From Arthrobacter methylotrophus (GTDB taxonomy: Bacteria; Actinomycetota; Actinomycetes; Actinomycetales; Micrococcaceae): a stretch of 64,000 nucleotides of DNA. This document shows positions 23,740 to 39,406 of the stretch, piece after piece. The stretch lies in NCBI RefSeq assembly GCF_039539965.1, contig NZ_BAABED010000001.1, positions 3,100,001-3,164,000 of the forward strand. The letters are read 5' to 3'. Position 1 is the stretch's first letter. Every line of letters starts with the position of its first letter. The notes under the pieces are model-generated. The model was not told where the DNA came from. It did no database searches and saw only the letters and a list, made by a program, of their open reading frames with translations. A program made the position numbers and the translations under genes.

Positions 23740-23784
23740 ACGTTACCTGCGGGTTTCTATCCTGGATTGAGTGGTAACTACTTG
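23740..23784 (-). promoter_or_regulatory. Candidate LAL-A promoter with 17-bp dyad (P4)
   Basis: Read on the minus strand, the dyad CAAGTAGTTACCACTCA (23784 to 23768) is followed after exactly 22 bp by a -10-like TAACGT (23745 to 23740). The layout matches P1, P2 and P3. A second CAAGTAG half-site lies 18 bp further upstream (23802 to 23796). No good -35 is visible, as expected for an activated promoter. Confidence 0.55.
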
Positions 23785-23879
23785 GTTTTCCGGGGCTACT
23801 TGCACCAGGCATCCGCGCTCCACGGAGCGCCTGGGAGAGGCCCGGCGGCGACGGCACGGCCCCGGATTTATAGCCGCTG

Positions 23880-24098
23880 TTACCGTCCTGTGATCTCACT
23901 GTGTATGCTGGTCCCGCAAGAGTAAGTTCCGGCTGGCTACTTCTGGGGAGTTGAAGCGCAGCCGATTTCCGTAACGACTCTGTCGTACACACGACCATTT
24001 GGCCGTGTACGACGCTGCGGCATTTTTGCCTGCAGATAGCGCTTTTCATTGCCTAGGTCTCGTATGTCTATGTCCCCAACAGATATGTCACCCAAAAT
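23880..24098 (+). promoter_or_regulatory. Promoter and structured leader of the secreted protein gene at 24099
   Basis: TTACCG (23880-23885) and TATGCT (23904-23909) are 18 bp apart and would start a leader of about 180 nt. It contains an outer pairing CGGCTG (23930-23935) with CAGCCG (23959-23964), and a second hairpin with perfect 9-bp arms GTCGTACAC (23982-23990) and GTGTACGAC (24005-24013). Long leaders before secreted cell-wall proteins are often riboswitches in Actinobacteria, but I do not recognise a known consensus here. Confidence 0.45.
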
Positions 24099-25175
24099 AT
24101 GAAACACCTGTTCACCGCACTCATAGCCGTGGCGCTTCTGGCCTTCGGCGGGCTAGCTACCATCTCCGCCGTCCAGTCGTCACACAAGTCCTCCTACCAG
24201 GCAGGCGACCGGACGTCAGCGCGCCCCAGTCCCTCGGCTTCCCCCTCCTCCACGCGCACTTCGACGCCGACGCCGACTTCGAGCAAGGTTCCGGTTGCGA
24301 CGCCCTCAAGCCCGCCCGCCGCGGCCACGCCGGCACCGGCACCGGCACCGGCACCCGCCACCGCAGCCCCCACTACGCCCGTCGCGGCACCCGCTCCCGC
24401 GCCGGCCACGGGAACCTACCCGCTGCACACCAACATCGTGAGCACCACTTTCTGGGTCGGCGAAATCTTCAATGCAAACCTCTCGGATGGTTCGCAAGTC
24501 TGCTCCACTTTCAACGGCCAGTGGGCCCTCCAGCACACCGGAGTCAACCTCGGAACCACCCCTGCCGGGGCGAGTGGCTGCCCGGGTAGCCCCTACGGTG
24601 GTTGCGATGGCGTGAGTTCCGGAACCGGCACGAGTTTCAAGTGCGCCACCGAACAGCGGGTCGCCAGCAACGGGTACTTCCCGTTGCACCAGCCCAAGCC
24701 GTTGCAAAACCCGTTCTACCTGGATCTGCCCTACGACGATGTCAATGACAGCGTCGCTTTTGCAGAGCGTTGCAAAGTGATCCCGTGGGCCGCCGCAGAC
24801 AACGCCAAGACAGGCGTCAACCATTGCGCGGACTCGAACTACAGCTACATGAAGAACGCTTGGGTCCAGATCACGGGCCCCAACGGCGGCGTCTGCTACG
24901 GACAGGTTGAAGACGCGGGTCCCTCCAGCGGTTCCCTCTACCACGACTCCGCCTACGTCTTCGGGGCGAACAACGCCCGTCCCGTCAGCAAGCAATTCTC
25001 CGGCGACCCGAGCCAAGGCGCCGGCATGGATGTCTCCCCGGCACTGAACGGCTGCCTCGGTTTCGCCGAGTTGAATGGCGACAACGACCACGTGTCGTGG
25101 CGTTTCGTTGACCGTGCCAGCGTGCCGGCCGGTCCGTGGCTCACTGTTGTCACCACTTCGGGAGTGACCAACTAG
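24099..25175 (+). CDS. Secreted protein with Pro/Ala-rich linker and double-psi-barrel-like domain
   Basis: A 358-aa exported protein. There is a signal peptide or anchor at residues 1-25 and a Ser/Thr/Pro/Ala-rich linker at about 40-105 with repeated Ala-Pro. A cysteine-containing domain covers about 107-356, starting TYPLHTNIVSTTFWVGEIF. The C-terminal segment GMDVSPALNGCLGFAEL followed by WRFVDRASVPAGPW resembles the second half of double-psi beta-barrel (expansin/RlpA-like) domains; this is an inference from pattern only. The same domain, clearly related, is in the lipoprotein at 29965-30756. Both flank the glycosyltransferase/deacetylase/GH18 group, suggesting a role at the cell wall or in the exopolysaccharide matrix. 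Confidence 0.75.
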   Translation: MKHLFTALIAVALLAFGGLATISAVQSSHKSSYQAGDRTSARPSPSASPSSTRTSTPTPTSSKVPVATPSSPPAAATPAPAPAPAPATAAPTTPVAAPAPAPATGTYPLHTNIVSTTFWVGEIFNANLSDGSQVCSTFNGQWALQHTGVNLGTTPAGASGCPGSPYGGCDGVSSGTGTSFKCATEQRVASNGYFPLHQPKPLQNPFYLDLPYDDVNDSVAFAERCKVIPWAAADNAKTGVNHCADSNYSYMKNAWVQITGPNGGVCYGQVEDAGPSSGSLYHDSAYVFGANNARPVSKQFSGDPSQGAGMDVSPALNGCLGFAELNGDNDHVSWRFVDRASVPAGPWLTVVTTSGVTN

Positions 25176-25219
25176 AACCACGCGCGTTCCTTTGACCTAA
25201 GGGTCATTTCCCGGGAGCT

Positions 25220-25302
25220 ACACGGACGCCCATGTCCCGGCCATCACAGGCTGCGGGCATGGGCGTCCGTGTGTCCGGGGCCGGTTGTCCGGACACACGG
25301 AC
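25220..25302. terminator. Overlapping long hairpins between convergent genes
   Basis: One hairpin has 15-bp perfect arms (25220-25234 and 25258-25272). A second has 14-bp perfect arms (25265-25278 and 25289-25302). They share the segment GTCCGTGT at 25265-25272, so only one can form at a time. There is no long T-tract on either side. The position between two converging stop codons suggests a bidirectional transcription end. Confidence 0.6.
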
Positions 25303-25304
25303 CC

Positions 25305-26678
25305 CTAGCCGGTCCTCACGACGGACCGTTCGGGTACGTTGATCCCCTGAGGGGTGCGTTGAACCCTCCGAACCGGGCTGACCCAAACCCCCGACGAGCG
25401 CGACGAATATGCCTTAGGCAGTACTTGGAGGCAGATGACGGCATCCAGGATCCGCATGAACGGAAACAAGGGAGCCAGCAACAAGAAGCGCGGGCTGCGC
25501 ATGGAAACAGCGGCAAGCACTGTCAAGACAAGGTCCGGCAGGAAGACTCCGATCAGGACGTCCTGCGGCCGCAGGACGCCGGAGAGGAAGACAAAGACGT
25601 CCGATCGATTCCCAAAGATCCAGACCTCGACGGCGGCGACGGACGACAGGAGGAACGCGGGCACCAACAGCACAAAGAAGATGCAGCTTGCAACGAGCTC
25701 AACGATGTAAAGGCCCAGGACAAACCAGAACTTGCTGAATTGCAGGCCGTGCCGTCTGACGGTCTGCCAGAAGCCAAGGATCCAACGGCGCACCTGCTTG
25801 ATGTAGTCCTTCAGATTGTCCGGATCCTGCGTATAGGCGACAGCTGCCCCTGGATGGAACGCAATTCGCCCCAGCTTCTTCGCGTGGATTTCGAATGTCA
25901 TGTTGAAGTCTTCGATCACCAAGCCGGGCGCCAAGACCTCGATCTTTGCGAGCGCGCTGGTTCTGTACATACTGGCGAATCCGGGAACGATGGAGACAAC
26001 ATTCGCCCCGCGGGATGCCTGGCCGTATTTGAGCAGCAATTGAACCACGATGTACAAACGCTCCCGGTAAGCCACCAGGAAGCGGCCCATGGCCGTTGGG
26101 GGTGGGGGGCTCATGATCGACTTGGCACGTCCCGCGACGGCGACCACCGTGGGATCGGAAAACAGCGGCAAGCCGGTTTCGAGGTAGTCCGGAGTCGGGC
26201 GGGTGTCGGCGTCCAAGAGCATGACCACCTTGAACCGCTTGCACAGATCAAAATGGGCGATGCCTGCCGCGAGCGCACCGGCCTTGCCGCGATTCGGTTC
26301 GAGCTCAAGGACCTTTACCCCGGCTGCCCGCGCAATAGCGGCGGTGTCGTCGGTGGACATGTCCGATATGACGTGGATGTTGCGTCGGGGAACCAAAGCT
26401 GACGCGGCAAGGATTGTTTCCTTGATGACGAGGGCCTCATTGTGGGCGGCCACGAGGACTGCGACGTTCGAAGGATAGATCCGCACTCCTTTTGAGCGGT
26501 GGCGTGCCCGTCGTGGGATCGGTGCCTTGCCGCCAAACTGCAGATGGATCCAGCCGCTGGCCCGCCTGGACAATTCCCGGACGCGCCACCACCGCTCCCC
26601 CACCAAGCGCACGAGCCCGGCCAGAGACCAGAAAATCGTGCTGATCCCCAGAACCAAAACGATGGAAAGAAGTATCAC
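25305..26678 (-). CDS. Membrane glycosyltransferase family 2 (polysaccharide synthase type)
   Basis: A 457-aa membrane glycosyltransferase with one N-terminal span, a cytosolic GT2 domain and about four C-terminal spans. Catalytic motifs are HNEALVIKETI near 79, SDMSTDD near 105, DAD at 156-158, ED at 256-257 and QVRRW at 295-299. Together they define processive GT2 synthases such as PgaC/IcaA, cellulose and hyaluronan synthases. The start is GTG 26678, overlapping the deacetylase stop by 4 bp, so the two are made together. Pairing with a deacetylase-like gene recalls the pga/ica systems. The actual polymer is unknown, and the nucleotide-sugar dehydrogenase nearby would also allow a uronic-acid-containing product. 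Confidence 0.9.
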   Translation of the reverse strand: MILLSIVLVLGISTIFWSLAGLVRLVGERWWRVRELSRRASGWIHLQFGGKAPIPRRARHRSKGVRIYPSNVAVLVAAHNEALVIKETILAASALVPRRNIHVISDMSTDDTAAIARAAGVKVLELEPNRGKAGALAAGIAHFDLCKRFKVVMLLDADTRPTPDYLETGLPLFSDPTVVAVAGRAKSIMSPPPPTAMGRFLVAYRERLYIVVQLLLKYGQASRGANVVSIVPGFASMYRTSALAKIEVLAPGLVIEDFNMTFEIHAKKLGRIAFHPGAAVAYTQDPDNLKDYIKQVRRWILGFWQTVRRHGLQFSKFWFVLGLYIVELVASCIFFVLLVPAFLLSSVAAVEVWIFGNRSDVFVFLSGVLRPQDVLIGVFLPDLVLTVLAAVSMRSPRFLLLAPLFPFMRILDAVICLQVLPKAYSSRSSGVWVSPVRRVQRTPQGINVPERSVVRTG

Positions 26679-28084
26679 GGCGACGGAGCTCCAATTGTGT
26701 CGTACATCTCGTAGTCATCGGTAGCAAGCTGGCCATCGCTGAAGAGGTTCAAGCCAAAGCTGACTGCCTCAGCGCCGGTAGGAACCGGCGGGGTCTGCCA
26801 GATCGCTTGTTCGTAGCTGGTGTTTGCTGCAAACCAAGGACTGGCCGTCCAGTAGGTCCACGTACCGAGCTTGTTCCGGTAATACACTTCAAATTGGGTC
26901 TTCGCGGTGGACTGATACCACGCACGAAGTGAATAGCTATGGCCGGCACTCACGCTCGGGGCACATGCTCCAAGATCGAGGACGGGAAGCAATTTCGCGT
27001 CACCGGACGCATATTCCGTCATGTCCAGGCGTCGGGCAACCTCACCGCTGTGCCCCGGCGTCAAGGTGCTGAGCACGGCGGCATTCTTGCCGTAAGACGA
27101 AACCTGCCAGCATTGGGGCAAGCCATACTTACCGATGGTTTCCAGTCCCGGATTCCGAATGGCGTTTTTGCCCGGTGCCGCCGGTGCAGGCACCGGGCCG
27201 TTCACCACAGGTTGCGCCACGCCACCGATCACATCATGTACCGTGCGCACGGCCATTGTCCCTGTTCCGGTCGTCGCTGCCAGCCAGGTGGCGAACTGTT
27301 CGAACAAGGCCGGGCTGACGGAGCGGGGACTGCCGCTGTTGTCAATGTCGTAGAAGGTCAGCTGCAACCAGCCTCCGGCCTTTTCCGCTTGCTCTACCGT
27401 CGCCTCAAGGTTTGCCAAGGTCCAAGCGCTGCCGACCTCTGATGCTGCCCGTGTTCGGAAAAGGTCGGCGGGCCGGACGCTTTCTGCGGCAGCGCAGCCC
27501 GCACAGTCAAGGGGTGTGTGGATTTCGCCGAGACCCCGGGCGCTGTTGTAGCCGCATCCAGCGACGATTCCTTCCGCGGGAGCCGATGAGGCCGCGAACG
27601 GGTAGGCGAAGGACGTGACCTTAAAGCCCCAATCCGTCAGGTTCACCCGATCGTCGCAGATCTGCCGTGACGCTTCGTCAGGCTCTACCGAGGTCACATC
27701 GGCAAGCGTGACGGTATGACCACCGATCTCATTCTGGTCCGCCGCCAGGCTGTGTAGGTTGTCCATGGTCATATAGCCAGGAGCACCAACAAAGCCCGAG
27801 TCGATGAAAAAGGTGCCGCGGAGGCCGTGGTCCTTCAAGATCCGGGCTGCTTCCATCTGGCTTGCCCTGCCGGCATCGAACGTCAGGCTGACAGACGACA
27901 GCGGCGCGGAAGGCGTGGGGCTACCGTTCCCGGCCCCATCTACGGGAGCACGGCTTCCATTGAGAAGCGGGGCAGTACCCGTTAACAGGAGCAGCACCGA
28001 CACCCATGAGACCGCCCAGAGGCCCACCCGTTTCCGGGAAGTGCGGACCGGGCCGGATAGGCGGTCCTTCCCTTCGGAACTCAT
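26675..28084 (-). CDS. NodB-type polysaccharide deacetylase-like protein with altered metal site
   Basis: A 469-aa membrane-anchored extracellular protein. There is an N-terminal span at about residues 20-40, a NodB homology domain at about 66-265, and a C-terminal beta-rich region at about 290-469 resembling a carbohydrate-binding module (SYSLRAWYQSTAKTQFEVYY). Motif 1 reads LTFDAG (D70, A71) where the family has TFDDG. Motif 2 reads GGHTVTL (H123, L127) where HxxxH is usual. Two of the three metal ligands are therefore missing, so catalysis is doubtful. Motif 3 is SFAYPFA. ATG 28084 follows GAGGG by 6 bp. It is the first gene of an operon with the glycosyltransferase and has a 300-nt leader. 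Confidence 0.87.
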   Translation of the reverse strand: MSSEGKDRLSGPVRTSRKRVGLWAVSWVSVLLLLTGTAPLLNGSRAPVDGAGNGSPTPSAPLSSVSLTFDAGRASQMEAARILKDHGLRGTFFIDSGFVGAPGYMTMDNLHSLAADQNEIGGHTVTLADVTSVEPDEASRQICDDRVNLTDWGFKVTSFAYPFAASSAPAEGIVAGCGYNSARGLGEIHTPLDCAGCAAAESVRPADLFRTRAASEVGSAWTLANLEATVEQAEKAGGWLQLTFYDIDNSGSPRSVSPALFEQFATWLAATTGTGTMAVRTVHDVIGGVAQPVVNGPVPAPAAPGKNAIRNPGLETIGKYGLPQCWQVSSYGKNAAVLSTLTPGHSGEVARRLDMTEYASGDAKLLPVLDLGACAPSVSAGHSYSLRAWYQSTAKTQFEVYYRNKLGTWTYWTASPWFAANTSYEQAIWQTPPVPTGAEAVSFGLNLFSDGQLATDDYEMYDTIGAPSP

Positions 28085-28398
28085 CGCAGACCCTCGTTCG
28101 GCAGATTCCTGAAGGGGCCGGTGGCGACTGGGGGAAGCCTCGGTCTCAAAGGCTTATTCACCACCGGCCCCCGTTCAGGGGCCCTCTCTGCGAGGGCGTG
28201 CTGCCATGGGGCAACACTGTCAATTGGCGATGGAATTTGGCGAGGAACAGCACGGAGTGCCCCCAGGACGGACTCGAACTCAAGCCAGGCGCCTCCCAGG
28301 ATCAATCCGCTTCGTCCAGATGCCGCTCGGACCAGAGCGTCCGTTTCCATTGTGAGACCTGTCTTTCCCCCGTTGCCCTCAACCAACTGACATCATCA
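28085..28398 (-). promoter_or_regulatory. Long structured leader of the deacetylase/glycosyltransferase operon (leader A)
   Basis: About 310 nt between the P1 -10 box and the start codon. An outer stem has perfect 11-bp arms (28161-28171 with 28114-28124). It encloses a hairpin with 6-bp arms (28150-28155 with 28135-28140) whose 9-base loop reads UUGAGACCG. Near the 5' end, GGTCTC (28359 to 28354) is complementary to GAGACC in that loop. Leader B at 33308-33569 has the same parts. There is no T-tract after this stem. An open frame 28386 to 28081 spans most of the leader and overlaps the deacetylase start by 4 bp. Confidence 0.55.
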
Positions 28399-28485
28399 GC
28401 GTATGAAGTCAAGCCTCGGCGGACACGAGTAGGCTCTACCCGTCTTTCACTCAGCATTGGCCCCCAGGACCGCGCCACTACTCGT
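28399..28485 (-). promoter_or_regulatory. Candidate promoter with 17-bp dyad (P1)
   Basis: On the minus strand the dyad CGGGTAGAGCCTACTCG (28443 to 28427) lies 22 bp before a -10-like TACGCT (28404 to 28399). A further half-site CGAGTAG (28485 to 28479) is 42 bp upstream, about four helix turns. A 31-bp stretch including the dyad is nearly identical to the one at P2 (three differences). Confidence 0.6.
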
Positions 28486-28600
28486 GCGCTACGTACCAAG
28501 GCAAGCGGAATACGGCCCGGGGCGCAGTCAGCGCGAATCAAGTCTGTTCGTGGTGAAATGGTGCATCAGGACATTCGGAGTCTAGGGATGGCGGAGGAGC

Positions 28601-29776
28601 GTGTCCAAGAAACAGGGAAGTGACGCCTCGGTTGCGGCTGAAGGAGGCAACGCACGGGGCGTCCGTGGCCCGTTCGCCGAAGCCAATGGTCATCGCTCCG
28701 ACAGACGCCGCCCGCTGTCAACCCGCGCCAGGGCGTGGATCGCCGTCGCCCTGGTGGTGGCAGGGATCGGAGGTCTTCTCGTGTGGCGGGTGACGACGGA
28801 TGCAAACGGCTCGCTCCAACCAGCCTGGTTTTCCGGATACGTTGATGTCACCGTGGTGCCGCAGTACCCTTTTGAGACGCCAACGGGAGACGGCACGAGG
28901 AATGTCACGTTGGCGTTTGTCGTGGCATTGGCTGGACAGCCCTGCACGCCCAGTTGGGGCAGCACTTACAGCCTTGATGCTGCGAAGACTTCGCTCAACC
29001 TCGAGGAACGGATCGCCAAGCTTCGGTCAAACGGCGGGGCGTTCGCAGTGTCCTTCGGGGGCTCGGTGAACAGTGAGCTTGCCAACTCCTGCCAGAGTGC
29101 GGCGGATCTGGAAACCGCCTACGGGGCCGTCCTGCGGCGTTACAACCCCGGAACCATCGACTTTGATATTGAAGGCGACAATCTCCTGGACAGCGCCGCG
29201 TGGCAGCGCCGTGCAGCAGCTGTCGGGGCCCTCCAGAAGGAACGAAGCAAGGAAGGACAAGCCCTCTCTGTGTGGTTGACTCTCCCTGTTACCCCTCAAG
29301 GATTGACCGACGCCGGAACCTCCGCCGTCGACCAGATGCTCGCCGCTGGTGTCCAGTTGTCCGGCGTCAACATCATGACGATGAACTACGGTTCGAGCCG
29401 GAGGGACTCCCAGACCATGCTCGATGCCGGAACCTCAGCAGCGCAGGCCACCCACGAACAACTCAGCATCATCTATCAACGAGCGGGCATGGACCTCAGC
29501 AGCGAGCAGATCTGGCGGAAGATGGGCTTGACCCCCATGATCGGCTTGAACGACCTCCCCGGCGAAGTGTTCGACCTGGATGCAGCACGCGGGTTGAACT
29601 CGTTCGCCGTCAGCAACGGCGTGGAACGAGTGTCCATGTGGTCCTTGAATCGGGACATGCAGTGCCCGCAGAACGCTCCAGAAGGTCCGGCCAGCCACGT
29701 CTGCAGCGGCATCGACCAAGGGACGCAGCGCTTCTCGGACCTGTTGGGTGCGGGATTCCAGGGCAAGCTGCCCTGA
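28601..29776 (+). CDS. GH18-like (chitinase-type) membrane-anchored protein
   Basis: A 391-aa protein with a cytoplasmic basic N-terminus, one membrane span at residues 44-63 and an extracellular domain. The domain matches glycoside hydrolase 18: AFAVSFGGSVNSELANSC near 147 and the catalytic strand GTIDFDIEG with D187, D189 and E191. NIMTMNYGSS and MGLTPMIGLND follow further on. Actinobacterial proteins of this type are often annotated as chitinases; the true substrate may be an N-acetylhexosamine polymer made by the neighbouring synthase. GTG 28601 is the start used, although GGAGGAG lies only 1 bp before it, so the start is uncertain. It is divergent from the deacetylase operon. Confidence 0.82.
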   Translation: MSKKQGSDASVAAEGGNARGVRGPFAEANGHRSDRRRPLSTRARAWIAVALVVAGIGGLLVWRVTTDANGSLQPAWFSGYVDVTVVPQYPFETPTGDGTRNVTLAFVVALAGQPCTPSWGSTYSLDAAKTSLNLEERIAKLRSNGGAFAVSFGGSVNSELANSCQSAADLETAYGAVLRRYNPGTIDFDIEGDNLLDSAAWQRRAAAVGALQKERSKEGQALSVWLTLPVTPQGLTDAGTSAVDQMLAAGVQLSGVNIMTMNYGSSRRDSQTMLDAGTSAAQATHEQLSIIYQRAGMDLSSEQIWRKMGLTPMIGLNDLPGEVFDLDAARGLNSFAVSNGVERVSMWSLNRDMQCPQNAPEGPASHVCSGIDQGTQRFSDLLGAGFQGKLP

Positions 29777-29964
29777 GCCCGCCACCCAGGACGGGATCAT
29801 GCCAGGCCCGCACGATCCGTTCTGTCCCGGTTCTTGGCTTCGGCCGGACGGGCAAGGTGCCGGCCCCTGCCGTGCCTAAACAACTTCTTGAACCACAGCA
29901 TGGATACCTCCAGTTTTCGAGGGATTGCTTGTACCTGATATCGGCTGGCCAGGCACTGGGGGGC

Positions 29965-30756
29965 CTACTGCACTTGGCTGACCGTGACGATGCTCAACCA
30001 CGGCCCGGCAGGAACCTGGTCGCGTGCCACGAACTGCCAGTCGACCTTGTCCGACTCTCCATCAAGCTCGGAAAAACCGAGACATCCGTTGAGGGCGGGC
30101 GAGACATCCATGCCAGCGCCGTTGAAATTCTTATTTACTGGGCGGGCATCGTTGGAGCCGAAGACGTAGTCCTTGTCGTGGTACTGGCCGGGGCCGGCGT
30201 CTTCGATCTGTCCGTAGCATTCACGGCCGTCCTTGCGGATTCTGACCCACTGGTTCTTCATGTAGCTGAATGAACGGTTTTGGGCGTTGCCCGCGAATCC
30301 GGGGTCGTTGGCCCAGGGGATGACGCTGGCCCGTTCGGCGAACGCAGTGGCATCGTTGACGTCGTCAAAGGGAAGATCCAGATAGAACGGGTTCTCCTTG
30401 GGGGTCATGGCGGTCGGCGCATATCCCTTGGCTTGCGTTCGCGCCTCGGTTTGGCAGCCATTCGTGTTAACGCCGTCGCAGCCTCCATAACTCCGCATCC
30501 ACTGGGAATCGTAAGTGGACATGACCTGGCTGCCGTCTGCTGCGTTGGGATCAAAGATCTCGCCGACCCAAAAGGTCGTGGACACGATCCCGGTGTGCCA
30601 TGGGTATTGCCTTGCGGCCGTGGTTCCTTGGCTCGGAGTCGGTCCAGGCCCCGGCCCGGGCCCCGTACACGCTGCCGTGAGCAGGGCGAGACAAAATGCG
30701 ACACCAACAGATACGCGTTTCCGACGCTTGGCGGTGGACGTCGCTGTATTCACCAT
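29965..30756 (-). CDS. Secreted lipoprotein related to the protein at 24099
   Basis: A 263-aa predicted lipoprotein. A basic N-terminus and hydrophobic core end in lipobox LTAAC (C30), followed by a Gly/Pro linker. Residues about 50-262 are plainly homologous to the domain at 24099-25175: the shared run HTGIVSTTFWVGEIFDPN, ENPFYLDLPFDDVNDATAFAER, YGQIEDAGP and GMDVSPALNGCLGFSELDG. The last part resembles a double-psi beta-barrel (inference). The epimerase gene ends 134 bp upstream on the same strand, so it may belong to that operon. AAGGGAG precedes ATG 30756 by 3 bp and the next codon GTG by 6 bp. Confidence 0.78.
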   Translation of the reverse strand: MVNTATSTAKRRKRVSVGVAFCLALLTAACTGPGPGPGPTPSQGTTAARQYPWHTGIVSTTFWVGEIFDPNAADGSQVMSTYDSQWMRSYGGCDGVNTNGCQTEARTQAKGYAPTAMTPKENPFYLDLPFDDVNDATAFAERASVIPWANDPGFAGNAQNRSFSYMKNQWVRIRKDGRECYGQIEDAGPGQYHDKDYVFGSNDARPVNKNFNGAGMDVSPALNGCLGFSELDGESDKVDWQFVARDQVPAGPWLSIVTVSQVQ

Positions 30757-30890: not shown

Positions 30891-31895
30891 TCAAGAAGCC
30901 ATGGTGATTTTCCAACCCGCGGGATCCAGGACTTTTACCGGTTTGTAGTCTGCCGCGACGTTGAGGATGATTTCATCCAGGGTGGTCTTCGGGTCGAAGC
31001 CGACAAGGCCGAACGACTTGCTGTTGTCCGGAACGCGCCGCCGCATGTCCTCGTACCCTTCCGAGTAGGCCTGCTCATAGGGAACCAGCGAAATGGGGCT
31101 GTCACTTCCGAGGAGTTCAACGATCCGTTCGGCCAGTGTCAGGATGGATATCTCGTAGCTGCCACCGAGGTTGTACGCATTCCCGTAGGCGAGTGGTTCC
31201 TCGGAAATGCGAGTGATGGCCGGAACGATGTCACCGACGTAGGAGAAGCATCTGGTCTGCTTGCCGTCGCCGTACACCGTCAGAGGCTCACCGAGGAGCG
31301 CTTGGCGCACGAGTCGCGGAACAACCATTCCGTAGCGGCCTGTCTGCCGCGGCCCCACCGTGTTGAAGAGCCGCACAATGGCAACCGGGAGTCCGAACTG
31401 GCGCCAGTACGCATGAGCAAATGCTTCATCGATGCCCTTGGCCGCCGCATATGTCCACCTGGACTTGAGCGCGGATCCCAAGATGCGGTCTGCTTCCTCC
31501 GAGAGGCTGTCCGAGGCGTTTTTGCCATAGATCTCGCTGGTGGATGCCAACAACAGCGAGGCTCCTGACTCCAGCACCGAGTCCAGAACCACTTCGGTGC
31601 CATGGATATTCGTGCGTAGGCTCTCCAGCGGGTGGTCAACAATCAGGTTCACGCCTACGGCGGCAGCCAAATGGAAGACCCTATCGGCACCCGCCACCAC
31701 CTTGTCCACGGCGTCCCGGTCGAGGATGGTGCCCTCGACGAAGTGGAACTCCCGGTGGCCGATGACGCCTTTGAGATTCTCAAGGCGTCCCGTCGACAAA
31801 TTGTCCAGGACGGCGACTTCGTCTCCGGCCGCCAGCAGATGCTCAACAAGATGGCTTCCTATGAATCCGGCACCGCCGGTAATTGCTGTTTTCAT
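30891..31895 (-). CDS. NAD-dependent nucleotide-sugar epimerase/dehydratase
   Basis: A 334-aa extended short-chain dehydrogenase acting on a nucleotide sugar. NAD-binding motif GGAGFIGSH is at residues 7-15, the catalytic Ser/Thr in LASTSEIYG near 118-120, and the Tyr-Lys pair is Y149/K153 in WTYAAAKG. FNTVGPRQTGRYGMVVPRLVRQAL is typical of UDP-glucuronate decarboxylase/UDP-glucose 4-epimerase relatives. It lies 29 bp after the sugar dehydrogenase gene, so the two probably act in sequence, for example dehydrogenase then decarboxylase or epimerase on the UDP-uronic acid. The specific reaction cannot be fixed from sequence. Confidence 0.88.
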   Translation of the reverse strand: MKTAITGGAGFIGSHLVEHLLAAGDEVAVLDNLSTGRLENLKGVIGHREFHFVEGTILDRDAVDKVVAGADRVFHLAAAVGVNLIVDHPLESLRTNIHGTEVVLDSVLESGASLLLASTSEIYGKNASDSLSEEADRILGSALKSRWTYAAAKGIDEAFAHAYWRQFGLPVAIVRLFNTVGPRQTGRYGMVVPRLVRQALLGEPLTVYGDGKQTRCFSYVGDIVPAITRISEEPLAYGNAYNLGGSYEISILTLAERIVELLGSDSPISLVPYEQAYSEGYEDMRRRVPDNSKSFGLVGFDPKTTLDEIILNVAADYKPVKVLDPAGWKITMAS

Positions 31896-31924
31896 TACTC
31901 CTGCTTCCTCGAAACCTGATGGAT

Positions 31925-33307
31925 CTAGAGCCGGGTTACGTTGTCGGCTTTGGTCAAGCGGTACGTCGTATCAAGGACTGCTGCTGCTTCGGCCAGCCAG
32001 TCAAGGTCCATTTGGCTGTGCCTCGTGTGCAGGATCACCAGATCTGCACCCCACTCAGCCGGCGACGCCTCCGAGTGGAGAACCCCTCCGTGCCCGTCGG
32101 GCGCCGTCTGGCACCAAGGATCGGAGTATGCCACTTCGGCCCCATCGGCGATCAAGGCTGCGATGATCTCCAACGCCGGGGATTCCCGAAGGTCTTCGAC
32201 GTCGGGCTTGTATGCGACCCCAAGAACCATGACCCGGGCGCCGGAAACACCGTGGTTGCGGTCCGACAGGATCCGCCGGGCCTTTTCCACCACTTGGTGG
32301 GGCCTGCCGGCAATCCCGGCCATCGCTTGCTCGATCACCGGCGCAGTGAGGCGGGCCTTCCGCAATTGCCACAACAAGTAATGGGGGTCGCAGGGGATGC
32401 AGTGTCCGCCGACTCCGGGCCCAGGGGTAAACGGCATGAATCCGTAGGGTTTGGTGGAAGCCGCATCGATGACGTCCATGACCTCCATGTTGAGTTCGTG
32501 GCAGATATCAGCGAACTCGTTCGCCAAGGCGATATTGACGGCCCGGAAGGTGTTCTCCACGAGCTTGGTCATTTCAGCGACGTCGGCCGACGGGACGACG
32601 TGTACCAGCTTTGTGCTCGCGCTCAGAAGGCGTTCGGCCGCTTCCCCGCAAGCCGGGGTTACGCCGCCGACGACCCGGGGCACATCTTCGTGCGAGAACG
32701 AGTCAACGCCAGGGTTGATGCGCTCCGGCGAAAATGCGACGAAAACGTCGCGGCCCGGGATGAGCCCCTTGGCAGCCAGGGGCAAGGCCAGAAGGTCCCG
32801 GGTGGATCCCACATACGTCGTAGAGGTAAGCATCAGAAGTTGGCCCGCGGTGGCAAAATCGACCACGGAGGCGCAGGCCGCTCGAAGAATACCGAGGTCC
32901 GGGACCAAATACTCGTCGACCGGGGTGGGAACGCAAACAACCACTGCCGCCGCACGGGCAAGCAACGACAAATCGCTGCTCAGCATGAACGTAGGGTCCA
33001 GCAGTGCGTTGCTGAGGCGCTCTTTGTCGGAGTCCAGAAGGTCTGCCCGCTGCTCGCGGATCACCGCGAGCCGGCCGTCGGACACATCCAGGCCCAGCAC
33101 CCGCCGGCCCGAGGCGTTGATTGCCAGGGCGGTTGGCAGGCCCACATAGCCCATGCCCACGATTGCCACGTCGAAGCTGAATGCCTGGTCTTGCGTGGTG
33201 GTCCTTGCTGTCGTGCCCTCCGGCCATGCCGGTGCAGGCGCGTGCAAGGACTGTGAGCTTCCGTTGAGCTCTGTCTTGAGGGTCTTTACCTTCGTGTTCG
33301 GTGCCAT
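31925..33307 (-). CDS. UDP-sugar 6-dehydrogenase (UDP-glucose/UDP-HexNAc dehydrogenase family)
   Basis: A 460-aa enzyme that oxidises the C6 alcohol of a UDP-sugar to the uronic acid in two NAD-dependent steps. There is a 40-residue N-terminal extension, then VAIVGMGYVGLP at 47-58, the catalytic region EMTKLVENTFRAVNIALANEF near 245-265 and the catalytic cysteine C303 in GVGGHCIPCDPHYLL. The GGHCIPxDPxYL form is typical of the WecC/TviB (UDP-N-acetylhexosamine) branch. GGGAGGT lies 9 bp before ATG 33307. It heads an operon with the epimerase, and its expression is probably controlled by the terminator-bearing leader just upstream. Confidence 0.9.
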   Translation of the reverse strand: MAPNTKVKTLKTELNGSSQSLHAPAPAWPEGTTARTTTQDQAFSFDVAIVGMGYVGLPTALAINASGRRVLGLDVSDGRLAVIREQRADLLDSDKERLSNALLDPTFMLSSDLSLLARAAAVVVCVPTPVDEYLVPDLGILRAACASVVDFATAGQLLMLTSTTYVGSTRDLLALPLAAKGLIPGRDVFVAFSPERINPGVDSFSHEDVPRVVGGVTPACGEAAERLLSASTKLVHVVPSADVAEMTKLVENTFRAVNIALANEFADICHELNMEVMDVIDAASTKPYGFMPFTPGPGVGGHCIPCDPHYLLWQLRKARLTAPVIEQAMAGIAGRPHQVVEKARRILSDRNHGVSGARVMVLGVAYKPDVEDLRESPALEIIAALIADGAEVAYSDPWCQTAPDGHGGVLHSEASPAEWGADLVILHTRHSQMDLDWLAEAAAVLDTTYRLTKADNVTRL

Positions 33308-33569
33308 GGTCAGTCGACCTCCCGGTGCCTGTTGTCTCCAGTGTGAAAAAAAGCCGGCGACGAAACGGGTTGTGCCCTGGTCTCAGAGGGCGCGTGTCCG
33401 CGCGTCGCCGGCTCGCTTGTGGGGGTACCCGCAGAATGCGGGAGACCGGTCGCATTGGAGCTGATTTCTCGCCGGATTACCGGTTGGTTTTCCTGTAGCA
33501 AAGAATTCTTCCTGCGTTTCATCTCGAGACCCACTTATCCCCAATTGAGTGGCGGTTGCCATCAAGAAG
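33308..33569 (-). promoter_or_regulatory. Structured leader with intrinsic terminator before the sugar dehydrogenase (leader B)
   Basis: Reading the minus strand, perfect 11-bp arms (33413-33403 and 33362-33352) enclose 40 bases and run directly into seven Ts (33352-33346). This is a canonical intrinsic terminator 38 bp before the gene start. Inside is a hairpin with stem GCCCU/AGGGC (33391-33387 and 33378-33374) and loop CUGAGACC. GGTCTC near the 5' end (33531 to 33526) is complementary to the loop. A 70-codon frame starting ATGAAACGC at 33522 runs through the terminator and stops 2 bp before the gene start. The arrangement points to attenuation. Confidence 0.65.
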
Positions 33570-33690
33570 AGCGTATTAACCAACCCCTACGGCGGGCGCG
33601 AGTGGGCTCTACCCGTCTTTGGATGCGTTGTCCCGCAAGCCACCGTTGACTACCCGTTCAAGCACTTTTAACCACTCGATTCAGTACTCG
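33570..33690 (-). promoter_or_regulatory. Candidate promoter with 17-bp dyad and upstream half-sites (P2)
   Basis: The minus-strand dyad CGGGTAGAGCCCACTCG (33615 to 33599) is 23 bp before a -10-like TACGCT (33575 to 33570). Upstream half-sites are CGGGTAG (33656-33650), CGAGTGG (33678-33672) and CGAGTAC (33690-33684). The first is 41 bp from the dyad half-site, nearly the same spacing as in P1. The remainder of the gap up to the LAL-B stop (33691-33797) shows nothing else I can name. Confidence 0.6.
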
Positions 33691-33797
33691 TTTTTGGCTC
33701 TCGCGCCCTTTGCGTGCCTTTTGCAGCGCACGACGGCGGAAGCCGGCTTCCGGGAATCGGTCACCTCATGGGAGTGGGAAGTCAGTTGCGCGTGCGG

Positions 33798-36479
33798 TTA
33801 GCCCTGGCCCTGCGTGCCTTGGACTCCGTTTATGAGGTCCTCACGGTGGCTGATGCCAAGCTTGGCAAACATCCGGTAGAGATGGCCTTCAACGGTGCGC
33901 AGGGATAGGCCCAAGCCAAGCGCAATGTCCTTGTTGCTGGATCCCGATTGCACGAGCGTTGCGATTTCCTGCTCTCGCCTGGTCAGCTTATGAAGGTCAG
34001 GTGAACTCCCGTCAACAACCGGGTTCGCCTTGTCGAGGGCGGCGGTGCGCCGCTTGAGAAGCCGTTGTCCCTCAAGCTGGCGCGCCTTGTCCCCTCTGCT
34101 TTCCAAGATCCGGAGGGCGTGGCTGGCACAATCAGCCGCAGCAAGCTCTAAGCCATCCCTCGCGGCCGAATCACTGAGCTCGATCAGGCGATCCGCGTCC
34201 TTGTGCACCAAGGCCAGTCCGACGCTCAGGGCGAACTCGGCGGTGCGGCCTTCGCTGCCTTCGGCTACCGCTATCAGCCGGCGCGCCACACTCGCATCTC
34301 CCAGTCTCAGCACCAACATGAGGATGTCGATCTCCGCACCGATCGCACCGTTCGCCGCCGCCGAATCCGAAAGCGACATGAGTCTCGCGATGGCTGTCTG
34401 CGATCCGCTCTGATCTGCCCTGGCAACTGCCGCATGGCCTTGGGCCAGAAGGGACGGATGCACACCTTCCCGGATCAATGCGTCGTATTCGTTTGAGTAC
34501 GTCATGGCAGTGTCCCGGCGTTTCAGGATCGACGCAGCGTACGCGGCGGCAGCTACGGCGTCGGGAAGCTCGTTTCCCATATCCGAGACACGCAGCATGC
34601 TGACCGCCTGGCGAAGCCGTGGAAGCGCCACGCCCAGATCGCCTCTGCGCAAGTCCACCATCCCTGCCGCCAGATGGAGCATCCCGCCCGAATAGATGAG
34701 AGAGTTCGGCGCCTGTGAGACATGATTCCTCAGGAACGTCTCAAGAACGGCAAACTCGCCTGCTTGTTGCAGGGCAAGGATGTAAGTGCGCATCACAAAG
34801 CCCGCGTATTGGAGGCTCCAATCGCCGCTCGAAGCGACCATCTCCTGGATCCCCATCAGAATCTGGAGGGCAGAAACCGGCCGGCCAGTGACCGCCATCG
34901 CCTCGGAAAGCAAGGTGGCCGCCACGACTCGGGACTCGTCGTCGTCCGTTTCTTTCCAAATCTGGCGGAGTTCACGTTCCGTTTCGACGTAGTGGCCTTC
35001 GGTTTGCAGGCCTTGGAGCGAAAGGAGCCTGCTTCCCAGCTTTCCGCGTTCCAGCTCGGCGGGGTCGATCCCCGGGGAAGACTCGGCAAGCCTGGCGAGG
35101 GCCGCTTCCCATTCGTAGGCGGCTTGTTTGACGGCGTTCGGCCCAAGGCCTTGGCGCCCGGCGAGTTGGGCCGCCAACATCGAAGCCTGCCGGATAGTCC
35201 GAGGATCACGCGTCCGATCCACCACTCCCGCAAGCGATGACACCGATCCCCTGATATCGCCCCGGTACCACTTGGCCCGCGCTACCTCCACTTGGGCGGC
35301 AAGTCTGAGGGCAGGATCCTTGATCGCGCCGACCACCCTCTCCACATAGCTCGGGATGAACAGCCGGTTGGCCAGCTGGGCTGCTTCAAGGATGTCGGAG
35401 TCCGGGACCTCAGTGCCCGATTCCAGTCCCCAGGAGACGAACCTCAGGAGGCCGTCCATGGTCTGTGGCTTGGCCTCCATGAGCTCTACGATGCGCCGTC
35501 GGATCGTCATGCTGTGGGCAGTGGGGACCAATTGACGGATCACTTCCCCCACCAGCGGCTGAGCGAGCCGGACATGCCGGGCAGGGTCGGACGCGATGTC
35601 AATGAAGTGCAGCTCCTGCAGCTCGTCGACGGCGTTGGAGTTGCTGGCCTGCTGCACTACGCTCAGCGGGACGGGCTCGGCCAAGGCCACGGTCTCCAAG
35701 GTCTCCCGCTGTTCGGCTCCGAGCATGAGGATCTGGTTCCTCACAAGGTCCATTAACCGGACGCTGGTTCCCCGAAGTTCTCCCGAAAGCATCCATGAAT
35801 CGTTGCGGCAGACCAACTGGCCGAGCGACTTGGCATGCCCGATGAGTTCCAGGAGGAACATGGGGTTTCCCCCGGAATACTTGCAGAGGACAGCGCTGGA
35901 GCTTTGTACGACAGGTGCGTCCAGGGTCTGGGCGCACAATTGGTTGACTTCCTGTTCGTTGAGTGGCTGCAGGTCGAATCGATCCACGAGCCCCTCGGAC
36001 CACATCGAGAAAACTTCTGCTGGCGGCGCAGGGTACGGGCGGCACAAGAACACGACTTTGGCGGCTTCCGCAGCCGCCAACTGTGCCAGGACAGCCACAC
36101 TGCTGTCATCGAGGTGGTGTGCGTCTTCCACGATCAGGACGGCGGGCGCCGGATGCGGCTGGCCCGCCGGATTCAAGGCCGCTACGACCGTCCTGAGGAC
36201 TGACAATGGTTCACTGATCTGGCCCGGCGTCAATCCGGTCAGGAGCGGTGCCAAAGCCGCAAAGGGAACCGAGGCCAGAGTGGGTCCGGCAAAGACCCTG
36301 AAGGGGCGCACGCGTTGCCCGAGTTCGCGGACCACTTCGTTAATCAATGCTGTCTTTCCGATTCCGGCGTCGCCGAAAAGCAGGACCCCGGGGCCGTTGA
36401 CATCGAGGAGGCAGTCCACGACCGCGGCCATGACGCCGAACCGTCCGACCAGCGGCTCGGTCGAAACCACCTCGGTCAT
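33798..36479 (-). CDS. LuxR-family ATPase-type regulator (LAL-B)
   Basis: An 893-aa LAL regulator and the only one besides LAL-C with an intact P-loop. Walker A is GDAGIGKTALINEV near residue 38, Walker B is VLIVEDAHHLDD near 120, and AVLCKYSGGNPMFLLELI near 215 is the sensor region. A long TPR-like helical region follows. The LuxR HTH is at the C-terminus (LTRREQEIATLVQSGSSNKDI, recognition helix RTVEGHLY). ATG 36479 overlaps the LAL-C stop by 4 bp, so LAL-C and LAL-B are translated as a pair. Its last gene position is next to the sugar dehydrogenase promoter. The domain build matches MalT-like signal-sensing activators; the inducer is unknown. Confidence 0.93.
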   Translation of the reverse strand: MTEVVSTEPLVGRFGVMAAVVDCLLDVNGPGVLLFGDAGIGKTALINEVVRELGQRVRPFRVFAGPTLASVPFAALAPLLTGLTPGQISEPLSVLRTVVAALNPAGQPHPAPAVLIVEDAHHLDDSSVAVLAQLAAAEAAKVVFLCRPYPAPPAEVFSMWSEGLVDRFDLQPLNEQEVNQLCAQTLDAPVVQSSSAVLCKYSGGNPMFLLELIGHAKSLGQLVCRNDSWMLSGELRGTSVRLMDLVRNQILMLGAEQRETLETVALAEPVPLSVVQQASNSNAVDELQELHFIDIASDPARHVRLAQPLVGEVIRQLVPTAHSMTIRRRIVELMEAKPQTMDGLLRFVSWGLESGTEVPDSDILEAAQLANRLFIPSYVERVVGAIKDPALRLAAQVEVARAKWYRGDIRGSVSSLAGVVDRTRDPRTIRQASMLAAQLAGRQGLGPNAVKQAAYEWEAALARLAESSPGIDPAELERGKLGSRLLSLQGLQTEGHYVETERELRQIWKETDDDESRVVAATLLSEAMAVTGRPVSALQILMGIQEMVASSGDWSLQYAGFVMRTYILALQQAGEFAVLETFLRNHVSQAPNSLIYSGGMLHLAAGMVDLRRGDLGVALPRLRQAVSMLRVSDMGNELPDAVAAAAYAASILKRRDTAMTYSNEYDALIREGVHPSLLAQGHAAVARADQSGSQTAIARLMSLSDSAAANGAIGAEIDILMLVLRLGDASVARRLIAVAEGSEGRTAEFALSVGLALVHKDADRLIELSDSAARDGLELAAADCASHALRILESRGDKARQLEGQRLLKRRTAALDKANPVVDGSSPDLHKLTRREQEIATLVQSGSSNKDIALGLGLSLRTVEGHLYRMFAKLGISHREDLINGVQGTQGQG

Positions 36480-39259
36480 TGCGCACCGCCTTCGACGCTG
36501 CCAAGCGCGAAGCTCAGTTCGGAGCGTTCCACGATCTTCAGCTTGCCGAAAATCTGGTAGAGGTGCCCTTCCACCGTGCGTACCGAGACGTGGAGCTTCT
36601 CGGCGATGCCCTTGTTGCTTTCCCGCTTCGCCGCCAACCTGGCAATCTCCAGCTCACGCGCGGTCAGCTTGAGCCCCTCGTGGTTGCCGCTTTGAGGTGT
36701 GCGCAAACGCTGTCGGCACGTTTCTGCGAGGTGCCGGGCCCTCCTGAGTGCCGTCTTGTCCAACTGGAACTGATCCACGTGCAACACGGTCTCGGCGATA
36801 TCGAAAGCGAACCTGTCGTTCTGCATGTCTTCTGCCAATTGTGCTGCTTCAAGAAGACGCTCTGCGCTGCCCGCTATCGTCGCCCGAGCGTACGCGGCAC
36901 ACAATTCGGCGAATCGGCCCTGGCAATGGAGTGCCGAGTCGAGCAGCCGCGGAGCAGCCGCCACCGCCCCGAGCCGGACCGCCGAACTGAGGCAGAATAT
37001 CTCGTGGCCGGGGGCACCTTCGTCCCTGTCGACGTCGGCCAGTCTGAGGAGTGCCTCGACGGCGGCCTCCGGACCCTCGAGTCGCTCCCGGGCCAGCGCG
37101 ACGAAGTACTTCTTCGTCCGCTCTTTCCGCCACGTTGGCCGACGCAGCTGGGTGGACGCTTCCTTCAGGTACCTCAAGGCCTGATCTTGCTCTCCTTGCA
37201 GGGCCGAGGCGTAGGCCGCTGCTGTACAGGCGACATCCAGCATGCCTTCGTTGTCCTGTACTCGCAGCTGGCTTATCACCGGAAGGAGCGCTTCCATGCC
37301 ATCTTGGCCCCGTCCCTGGAGGCAACGGAAGATTGCTTTAGGAAGATCGATCGCAGTCGGGAGTGCCTCGGCCGGGGAACCCAGGAGGTCTTCGCCGGGC
37401 TGGACCATTTCCGCGGCATGGTCCCACCGCCCGGCAAGCACGAAGGCGAATCTCAGGCGCGATGAAGCGCGTCGGGCCGCGGCGATCGAAACAGCTGAAT
37501 CATGGCAAGCGGCAATCAGCTGTTCCGCCATGTCCGCTGCCTCGGATTCCCGTCCGGTCAGGGCCCATGCCTCGCACAGCCAGCTTCCGGCAAGAAGCCG
37601 GAATTCCACCCCGTGCGACTCAAAATCCTGAAGTACCTCTTCCAGCTTTGCTGCCATATCGGCATAGGAACCGGAATAGCTGGCCGCCTGCGATTCGGCC
37701 AGGACGAGGTCCTCCCATAGCTCGGGGACGTCCCGTCCTTCACCGGCCGACGCGGTTTCGTGTTCCAGCCGCCCGCGGATTCGTGCCAGCGTCTCGCGAG
37801 CCTGAGCCGTGGTTTCGGCTCGGGCCAAAAGGACTGAGCACTCGGCCAACTTGAGCCGGACCCATTCCGAAAGGGTGGCTTCATCACCGGATTCATCCGC
37901 GGAAAACGTCAAGACTTCTTGGGCTCCGGCCAGGTCGCCCAGCGTCATCAAACCACGGGCTTCCTCGGCTACCGCCCCGGGCATCGTGGAATGGCTGGGG
38001 ATGGACCGGACAAGGCGCAGGGCCAGGCGCGCATCAAGTTGCCGGTTGGCCATCGCGGCAGCTTCAATCACTTCGTCCGTGCCCAGCTTGGCTCCGCAGT
38101 CCAACGCCCACGCGGCCATGGAGAGCACCATCGAGGGTTGGCCAAGGGACGGATCCATCGCCTCAAGGAGCTCGCCCCGAAGTTCATTGCTTCGGCCAGG
38201 GGGAACGTTCGCCCGGACCACGTCGCCCACAAGCTGGCTTTGCAACCGGGCAATCCTCGGCAGCGAATCGTCGACGACGAGGATGCCCCTCTTCTCAAGG
38301 GAGTCCACATCATCCGCTGATGCGAGCGCCAGCAGGGATTCCAAGGGGGCGGCCTTGGCAAGGGAGAGGACCTCCAAGACCTTGCGCTCACCGCTGCCCA
38401 TCCGGCCAAGCCGTGTAGTGATGAGATCGGTGATTGCCCGGCCGTGCACCTCGCTTCGTGACGTCAGGACCCAGACCCCGTCGCTTTTCAGGAGCGCCCC
38501 GGATTCAGCGAGTTCCGCGGCGAGCATCTTGAGGTAGTGCGGGTTACCCCCGCTGGCCGTCCACAGGGCATGGGCGCCGGACGGCGAGACTTTTGCGCCC
38601 AACCCGGACTCGAGCCAAGCGTGGGACTCTTGAAAAGTCAGTTGCTTGAGGTCTATGCGGTGCAGGAATCCGTCGCCACAGAGCCGGGTGATCTCGCCAC
38701 AGAGCCGCTGCGGGTCCGTGCAGGTCAGGACAAGCTGGGCAGTGCCGTTCCTCGCGAGTTGTGCCACCGTCATGGCCCCCAGTTCGTCAAGCTCGGTGGC
38801 ATTTTCTATGACCAGGTACACCGGCTTTCCCTCGGCTCGCTCACGGAGCAGATTGGTCAGCGCCGACAGCACCAGGACCGGATGGGCCAAGTACCCGGCG
38901 TCTAGGTCGCTCAAGAGAATATTCAGGGCGCCATACGGTGATTTCGCCAGCGCTGCGCTGCCGCGGATCACGACGACGAACGAGCGGCTGCGTAGTTCGT
39001 TCACCGCGCGTGTGGTCAGGTAGCTCTTGCCACTCCCCGACGGTCCCGTCACCAGCACGCCTCCCCTGGCGGTTGCTAGCGCGAGCGAGATGTCTTCAAC
39101 TGCGGCCCTGTGTCCAATCGGCGGCCACGCCGTCGAAATTATCGACTTTCCTTCGGCTCCCTCAGGCGAAGAGGCCGGGGCCGCGTGGAATGCCTGGTAC
39201 CGGGGCGCTCCCCCGGACCGAATGGCATGGACCGTAGATGCACTGCCTGTTGTCAACAT
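36476..39259 (-). CDS. LuxR-family ATPase-type regulator (LAL-C)
   Basis: A 927-aa LAL regulator from ATG 39259; a TTG at 39298 would lie inside the predicted promoter and is rejected. Walker A is intact (GPSGSGKSYLTTRAV near residue 70). Walker B is weaker (YLVIENATELDE). A helical repeat region follows, and the C-terminus is a LuxR HTH (LTARELEIARLAAKRESNKGI, recognition helix RTVEGHLY). The start codon is preceded by GGGGG about 8 bp away. It is first in a two-gene operon with LAL-B. Its promoter (P3) carries the shared dyad and a row of extra half-sites, which suggests self- or cross-regulation among the LAL proteins. Confidence 0.93.
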   Translation of the reverse strand: MLTTGSASTVHAIRSGGAPRYQAFHAAPASSPEGAEGKSIISTAWPPIGHRAAVEDISLALATARGGVLVTGPSGSGKSYLTTRAVNELRSRSFVVVIRGSAALAKSPYGALNILLSDLDAGYLAHPVLVLSALTNLLRERAEGKPVYLVIENATELDELGAMTVAQLARNGTAQLVLTCTDPQRLCGEITRLCGDGFLHRIDLKQLTFQESHAWLESGLGAKVSPSGAHALWTASGGNPHYLKMLAAELAESGALLKSDGVWVLTSRSEVHGRAITDLITTRLGRMGSGERKVLEVLSLAKAAPLESLLALASADDVDSLEKRGILVVDDSLPRIARLQSQLVGDVVRANVPPGRSNELRGELLEAMDPSLGQPSMVLSMAAWALDCGAKLGTDEVIEAAAMANRQLDARLALRLVRSIPSHSTMPGAVAEEARGLMTLGDLAGAQEVLTFSADESGDEATLSEWVRLKLAECSVLLARAETTAQARETLARIRGRLEHETASAGEGRDVPELWEDLVLAESQAASYSGSYADMAAKLEEVLQDFESHGVEFRLLAGSWLCEAWALTGRESEAADMAEQLIAACHDSAVSIAAARRASSRLRFAFVLAGRWDHAAEMVQPGEDLLGSPAEALPTAIDLPKAIFRCLQGRGQDGMEALLPVISQLRVQDNEGMLDVACTAAAYASALQGEQDQALRYLKEASTQLRRPTWRKERTKKYFVALARERLEGPEAAVEALLRLADVDRDEGAPGHEIFCLSSAVRLGAVAAAPRLLDSALHCQGRFAELCAAYARATIAGSAERLLEAAQLAEDMQNDRFAFDIAETVLHVDQFQLDKTALRRARHLAETCRQRLRTPQSGNHEGLKLTARELEIARLAAKRESNKGIAEKLHVSVRTVEGHLYQIFGKLKIVERSELSFALGSVEGGAQ

Positions 39260-39296
39260 GAGCGAGACCCCCAGTGATCGAGTGGTGACACCCCCC

Positions 39297-39406
39297 AATT
39301 AACCAGCTCGCCGTCAGCCCTACACCAGTAGTGAGTACTCGACTTTCATCCTGCCCGATACTCGTATGCGGGTGTAAGTACCCCTGCTGCGTGGGACGGG
39401 TACTCG
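39297..39406 (-). promoter_or_regulatory. Candidate LAL-C/LAL-B promoter with dyad and phased half-site array (P3)
   Basis: The minus-strand dyad CGAGTACTCACTACTGG (39341 to 39325) is exactly 22 bp before a -10-like TTAATT (39302 to 39297). Further upstream are CGAGTAT (39364-39358), GGGGTAC (39384-39378) and CGAGTAC (39406-39400). Half-site starts are 23, 20 and 22 bp apart, close to two helix turns each, so all face the same side of the DNA. Confidence 0.6.

Follow-up and report, generated by a model that had tools for sequence, protein, structure and literature searches.

How are the regulator genes and the surface-polymer genes on a 64,000-nucleotide stretch of the Arthrobacter methylotrophus genome (contig NZ_BAABED010000001.1, positions 3,100,001 to 3,164,000; hereafter the window, position 1 being its first letter) brought under common control? 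A first-pass annotation had noted a 17-bp dyad shared by four promoters of the window, two of them serving genes for LAL proteins (large regulators with an N-terminal AAA/ATP-binding region and a C-terminal GerE helix-turn-helix domain) and two serving polymer genes, and had proposed a LAL regulon. From the analysis described here, an activator of the LuxR/GerE type probably uses the dyad as its operator. One or several LAL proteins are the likeliest candidates for it, and a leader RNA would add a second layer of control.

The dyad pattern, CRRGTASNNNCYACTSR, is matched exactly at just four places in the window, each on the minus strand, where the other genes, promoters and leader elements located below also lie. 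These are the copies noted previously: CAAGTAGTTACCACTCA (23768..23784) in the promoter of LAL-A, CGGGTAGAGCCTACTCG (28426..28442) in that of the deacetylase unit, CGGGTAGAGCCCACTCG (33599..33615) in that of the UDP-glucose dehydrogenase unit and CGAGTACTCACTACTGG (39325..39341) in the LAL-C/B promoter. The reported spacings are also exact, with 22, 22, 23 and 22 bp separating these dyads from the -10-like hexamers TAACGT (23740..23745), TACGCT (28398..28403), TACGCT (33570..33575) and TTAATT (39297..39302). In 100 dinucleotide shuffles of the window the pattern was matched 0.04 times on average and never more than once; when up to two mismatches were allowed, the window gave 24 matches against 10.7 expected. 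A fifth dyad, CGAGTAGCGTTTACTCT (19005..19021), falls outside the pattern. It is followed 22 bp on by TAGCCT (18977..18982) and then by an open reading frame (ORF) of 45 amino acids (18834..18971) that by eye looks like a small membrane protein. This ORF starts at about the expected transcription start, so that the transcript is perhaps leaderless.

The pattern was searched in 24 genomes, namely that of A. methylotrophus, 15 same-genus relatives and 8 genomes of other families, with gene positions taken from a simple purpose-made gene caller rather than an annotation. Matches were found in 18 of the 24, including A. methylotrophus and all 15 relatives. The own genome (5.08 Mb) has 9 matches against 11 for a reversed control pattern; the sums are 75 against 108 for the 15 relatives and 2, one each in two genomes, against 53 for the other families. 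The first-pass annotation had held that a motif equally common at random places in the genome would speak against a regulon. By count it is no commoner than the control, yet all nine own-genome matches lie between called genes; the number alone is thus uninformative, and the non-random part is the placement. Flanks were taken for all 71 same-genus positions, and the following counts are for 14 genus genomes, G012 being omitted as a carrier of the same cluster as the window. Called genes cover 83% of the fetched DNA, yet 52 of the 64 sites are intergenic; the next gene runs in the same direction at 40 of these and in the opposite direction at 8, the other 4 being palindromes that match on both strands. 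A TAnnnT hexamer starts 22 or 23 bp past the 17-mer at 31 of the 52 intergenic sites, against an average of 0.05 at other offsets, and at 5 of the 9 own-genome dyads. Two of the latter lie outside the window and have the hexamer exactly 22 bp on: TACTGT at C1:1043828 and TAGCTT at C1:4683593, the second upstream of a second polysaccharide deacetylase (L014). Outside the window, the own genome has five sites, four of which face a called gene on the same strand.

Ten proteins encoded downstream of dyads, nine from relatives and one own, were compared with Pfam. Seven are GH16, GT2, LGFP-repeat, acyltransferase or deacetylase proteins, with one of the two GH16 matches just under the cut-off; two are an esterase and an Hpt protein, and one had no match. 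The collected data support a regulon, apparently genus-wide rather than local, in which LAL genes are joined by genes for surface polymers and for proteins that appear to be secreted. The original observation is real and was understated, and its interpretation is partly supported. Among single sites, a dyad at L013:9066-9082 lies between genes that by eye are mraZ-like and rsmH-like, with an uncertain TACCGA at 23 bp, and the genome sites L011 and L012 lie upstream (295 and 84 bp) of related small proteins that begin DGQQ-IW and look membrane-like by eye.

A logo of 61 sites (own and G012 sites included, some palindromes counted twice) extends the dyad by an AAA placed two bases ahead of it, by T and G at +17 and +18, and by the -10 hexamer. 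The fuller element reads AAA-N2-CGAGTAS-N3-CTACTCG-TG and ends in a degenerate -35. The earlier statement that no good -35 is present holds in that the -35 is weak; it misses a degenerate xTGxC, in which only G (54/61) and T (34/61) are prominent, that overlaps the end of the dyad and is separated from the -10 by a 17-bp spacer. LuxR-type class II activators bind at a fixed distance from the -10, centred at about -42, over a weak or missing -35. The 22 or 23 bp spacing places the dyad centre near -43 or -44, so that the activator position first proposed for the window extends to the genus and, judged by position, suggests class II geometry. Inspected by eye, the deacetylase and dehydrogenase dyads have flanking sequence in common, as would be expected if a single module had been duplicated; hence they are not independent. 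Extra half-sites (e.g. CGAGTAG and CAAGTAG) lie some 15-45 bp upstream of the dyads at 28442 and 23784, are kept in most relatives by eye and are possible second binding sites.

The sites are conserved. A search with LAL-A recovered 11 Arthrobacter and 2 Pseudarthrobacter loci and one weak Streptomyces match. In all 11 other Arthrobacter loci the LAL-A 17-mer is identical, and in all 11 the arms of the deacetylase dyad are kept with changes confined to the middle bases; in both cases the flanks vary. The -10 and the 45-aa ORF of the fifth unit are kept in the 9 loci, out of 13, that a start pattern picked out, and its proportions of synonymous (pS) and nonsynonymous (pN) differences are 0.40 and 0.09 (45 pairs).

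Five LAL proteins are encoded in the window: LAL-A (21007..23667), LAL-B (33798..36479), LAL-C (36476..39259, a proposed start, the listed ORF beginning at 39298 within the -10) and a core pair whose exact starts are uncertain, LAL-D (39461..42277) and LAL-E (42198..44918). All have the family layout. In Pfam, GerE is over the cut-off in all five; AAA_16/AAA_22 is over it in LAL-B and LAL-C, below it in LAL-A (AAA_16) and LAL-D, and gives no match at E 0.001 in LAL-E, which does align with the family. In 14 of the 15 relatives at least two LAL genes come after glmU-prs-rplY-pth (the G005 contig stops short of glmU-prs), and in 13 sufS-iscU comes after the LAL cluster, the exceptions being G005 and the G012 stretch, where it was not seen. 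A match to a position weight matrix (PWM) of the dyad lies behind a gene of the pth-adjoining LAL cluster in 15/15 relatives, with scores from 13.7 (G005, the weakest) to 37.4. The PWM was trained on 46 sites fitting the earlier pattern, 7 of the 15 core sites among them, so that the scores of such sites are partly by construction; eight core sites are independent, seven that miss the pattern and that of the left-out G012. Since a match follows the core LAL cluster in relatives, the window site at 39325, first described as the LAL-C/B promoter, is the ancestral one, behind LAL-E/D, and in this clade LAL-C/B, the polymer genes and LAL-A are found between it and sufS.

Ten aligned LAL proteins, LAL-A excluded, have an invariant S-x-R-T-V-E-G-H-L-Y recognition stretch, and RTVEGHLY is found in 51 of 61 LAL C-termini examined. 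The recognition helix of LAL-A, NTVNAHLQR, is unlike the others (NTVNAHLQ in place of RTVEGHLY). Because of this difference, LAL-D and LAL-E, perhaps also LAL-B and LAL-C, are the probable dyad binders. With its different helix and the weakest PWM score of the four window dyads (15.7, the other three scoring 24.3-35.2), LAL-A is likelier a target. A LAL-linked regulon that joins LAL and polymer genes, as first proposed, is well supported beyond the window by the linkage in 15/15 relatives; binding of the dyad by LAL proteins we infer from sequence.

The dyad resembles the lux box of LuxR in its length (~17-20 bp), its GTA...TAC halves and its centre near -42/-43 over a weak -35, but differs in sequence and in its link to LAL proteins and a genus-wide surface regulon; Pfam found no autoinducer domain in the window LAL proteins. 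MalT boxes are not known to form a palindrome of this kind. The combination of an ATP-binding-type N-terminus with a C-terminal GerE helix-turn-helix is shared with MalT and with actinobacterial LAL regulators such as SCO6993 (PMC9628970). Listings and passages from the LAL literature contain no LAL site resembling the dyad.

Downstream of two of the promoters lies an RNA module that the first-pass annotation had not recognized. The leaders of the deacetylase and dehydrogenase units each contain a hairpin with a UGAGACC loop (28110..28171 and 33346..33415; 68.7 and 34.1 bits with the covariance model R1), the second followed by T7. R1 has 13 rows, which include the deacetylase copy and not the dehydrogenase copy, and a single stem of 22 pairs; the loop and a C-rich bulge are invariant across the rows though unpaired. 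In an alignment of 53 copies, bases can pair in 96.6% of the cells, two-sided changes are seen for 21 of the 22 pairs, and two-sided-change cells number 151 against 41 in shuffled and 7-27 in slid controls; the alignment was fitted to R1 itself, which favours covariation. The same hairpin is found behind the core dyad in 14 of the 15 relatives, and G012 carries it in polymer leaders instead. R1 gave 2 to 10 matches per relative in the 15 relatives (E <=1, antisense included), 4 in the own genome and none better than E 0.08 in the 8 other-family genomes. At E <=0.01 it matched 57 of the 120 genomes of the family, which belong to 19 of its 32 genera, and at 0.001 it matched 12 of 248 genomes of the order, all within the same family.

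The hairpin goes with LAL genes. In the 120 genomes, own included, both are found in 55, the hairpin only in 2 (weak matches), LAL only in 12 and neither in 51 (Fisher 1e-19, not corrected for relatedness); the relatives are not independent, and shuffle and Fisher statistics alike ignore kinship. We inspected 30 copies in 28 loci (L197-L224), the best-scoring of 97 listed matches, and in 22 of these 28 the nearest gene upstream, on the strand of the hairpin, encodes a LAL protein. In other genera of the family the hairpin is mostly behind LAL genes, and the gene behind it is a Bac_transf priming sugar transferase in all eight tested with Pfam of 24 loci.

In both polymer leaders the hairpin lies within an upstream ORF (uORF) that is preceded by a GGTCTCR box, to which the UGAGACC loop is complementary. 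In the deacetylase leader the box (28354..28359, next base A) is just ahead of an 89-aa uORF (28081..28350) that spans the hairpin and whose TGA stop overlaps the deacetylase ATG. In the dehydrogenase leader the box (33526..33531, next base G) precedes a 70-aa uORF (33310..33522) whose stop codon starts 5 nt ahead of the dehydrogenase ATG and whose length is equal in all 7 sequences, the window included. The two transcripts thus share a leader of box, uORF through the hairpin, and coupled stop and start. A third box (39264..39269, next base G) precedes the proposed ATG of LAL-C at 39259, and LAL-C appears to start directly at it. In the 300 nt upstream of the hairpin in the 24 other-genus leaders, GGTCTC occurs 19 times, in 14 leaders, and is the commonest of its 90 permutations (mean 2.6 for the other 89). 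GGTCTC-R stands shortly before an ATG in 13 of the 24, including five of the eight with a tested Bac_transf gene, and GGTCTC-Y in none; two leaders with the loop CGAGACC, of one kind, have GGTCTCG. In 19 leaders chosen for the presence of the box, several of them orthologues, the ORF from the hairpin-nearest ATG extends beyond the hairpin in 19/19, and its stop overlaps the start of the long ORF (ATGA or GTGA) in 15 and lies within 5 nt of it in 18. In L211 a second, upstream box begins merely a 22-aa ORF. The frame of the uORF is kept, with pN/pS of 0.64 over 21 pairs from 7 sequences of the dehydrogenase leader and of 0.93 over 45 pairs from 10 sequences, 63 to 89 aa long, of the deacetylase leader, ratios that include, without separating its share, any constraint from the overlapping RNA. 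These values speak against a conserved peptide, and it seems to be the open frame rather than the peptide that is kept.

EAR, JUMPstart/ops-RfaH and LoaP are polymer-operon leader systems. Like them, the hairpin is an RNA element that lies in cis, after the promoter and ahead of the polymer genes; unlike them, it has no Rfam match, lies in a coupled uORF and is found in genomes (24 searched) with no NusG paralogue. A known Rfam family was sought and rejected: window positions 16000-46000 gave one chance-level match only (E 4.8), and four relatives gave tRNAs only at gathering level. Among the matches listed, nine genus genomes have orthologous hairpin copies (L187-L193, L195, L196), with a dyad at PWM >=16 158-173 nt upstream in 4 of the 9 and a similar sequence by eye in the others; in L187 the gene below the hairpin is a GAF-ANTAR gene (Pfam). 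One hairpin set thus precedes genes of which one tested is GAF-ANTAR, a point of likeness to ANTAR-target RNAs. Those consist of two stems, each closed by a hexanucleotide loop with A1 and G4 (PMC8164766), and R1, with one long 22-pair stem and a loop around UGAGACC, is not of that form. Hairpins also lie near 85-aa proteins with a DELYGLY-SWCL stretch (L226, L228, L230, L231 and the second L235 copy), for the one tested of which, L228, there was no Pfam match. Two more own-genome hairpins lie off the cluster, at L242:4001-4067 (45.7 bits) and G000:C1:1408757-1408828 (35.7 bits), and are possible free small RNAs. In titles and the beginnings of abstracts, a weak guide with few subscription papers, there was no report on the motif, the RNA or LAL control of polymers in Arthrobacter.

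These elements can be combined into a mechanism. The activator, one or more LAL proteins with the helix RTVEGHLYR (the conserved LAL-D/LAL-E pair, perhaps LAL-B and LAL-C), would bind near -43, in contact with RNA polymerase, where the promoter has a weak -35, recruit the polymerase and turn on genes for polymers and apparently secreted proteins across the genus as well as LAL genes, in a feed-forward manner; activation itself, and a signal for the LAL proteins, are presumed from sequence features. In polymer transcripts the UGAGACC loop would pair with the GGTCTCR box and mask the uORF start. Ribosomes translating the uORF would melt the hairpin and, through the overlap of stop and start, pass on to the first polymer gene. 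It is a tentative proposal, to which we give rather less than even credence, that polymer operons of the Micrococcaceae are such two-layer switches, with a LAL operator and a loop masking the GGTCTCR of a uORF coupled by stop/start overlap to a priming sugar transferase or other first gene. Boxless copies, which include most of those behind the core LAL pair, may be small RNAs that act in trans, with LAL-C as one of their targets.

Several observations weigh against a LAL operator as the general explanation of the dyad. Neither in the own genome nor in the genus does it exceed its control in number; 12 of the 64 genus sites are inside genes, 8 of the 52 intergenic ones face an opposite-strand gene, and at 3 of the 5 own-genome sites beyond the window there is no TAnnnT 22 or 23 bp on. 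The own site C1:1043828 faces an opposite-strand gene, with a short ORF 295 bp on. In a strict form the dyad is limited to 13 of the 120 family genomes, and two of these 13 (G125 and G132) have no LAL match at 1e-30, and 10 of the 24 other-genus hairpin loci have no dyad at PWM >=13, nine of these with a LAL gene just upstream. That the four window sites are chance or a product of duplication, without function, is extremely improbable in spite of the counts and of the flanks that the deacetylase site shares with the dehydrogenase site; it is contradicted by where the sites lie, by their fixed distance to the -10 and by their conservation, and the shuffles together with intergenic placement rule out a chance origin. 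A more serious, though still unlikely, alternative is that another LuxR/NarL-type regulator, such as a response regulator, binds the dyad and the LAL genes are mere targets. GTA-N5-TAC halves are expected of GerE dimers generally, LAL genes themselves stand behind the dyad in this clade, and the genomes searched have many GerE-only matches, i.e. other LuxR-type regulators, so that LAL linkage is not proof. Against such a regulator stand the site behind the LAL cluster in every relative and the hairpin leader adjoining LAL genes in 22/28 family loci. A few related loci are suggestive in the same direction: where the LAL proteins have a GHVY helix, the left half of the dyad reads GTG instead of GTA at the same place in L201, L204 and L205, but not in L202 and L214. 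On balance we favour a LAL activator.

For the leader, an objection to box-loop pairing as a general rule is that the box precedes an ATG in only 2 of 14 genus core hairpins and that 9 of the 14 have no GGTCTC within 300 nt; since most core copies are boxless, the hairpin must also have a box-independent role. It could be a plain intrinsic terminator or attenuator whose complementarity to the box is incidental, as the T7 directly after the dehydrogenase-leader hairpin might suggest. We regard this as somewhat unlikely, given that a run of at least 5 T ends the hairpin in only 3 of 49 copies checked, that the unpaired loop and C-rich bulge are invariant in the model rows, and that GGTCTC heads its permutations and before an ATG is followed by R and never by Y. 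The position of the hairpin ahead of polymer genes would also suit binding by a NusG paralogue of the LoaP/RfaH type and processive antitermination of the polymer operons. This is very unlikely and was set aside, as each of the 24 genomes, 16 of them of this genus (own included), has exactly one NusG match. Pairing of loop and box, with an effect on the uORF, is a provisional reading of the leader.

The polymer genes of the window, assigned with Pfam, are a polysaccharide deacetylase (26675..28084) and a family 2 glycosyltransferase (25305..26678) in one unit, and a member of the UDP-glucose/GDP-mannose dehydrogenase family (31925..33307) and an NAD-dependent epimerase (30891..31895) in the other. 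The sequence GGTCTCATG at 28005-28020, within the start region of the deacetylase coding sequence, may be chance. At 54362-55539, two minus-strand ORFs resemble by eye an IS3-type transposase pair.

With the dyad, a LAL regulon for surface polymers acquires a defined candidate operator, from which its members can be predicted across a genus of soil bacteria. To this is added a covarying RNA family, without a match in Rfam, that heads polymer operons. Together they form a testable control circuit for surface polymers; if trans action of the hairpin on LAL-C, which has the box at its start and no hairpin, is true, it would close a loop between regulator and RNA.

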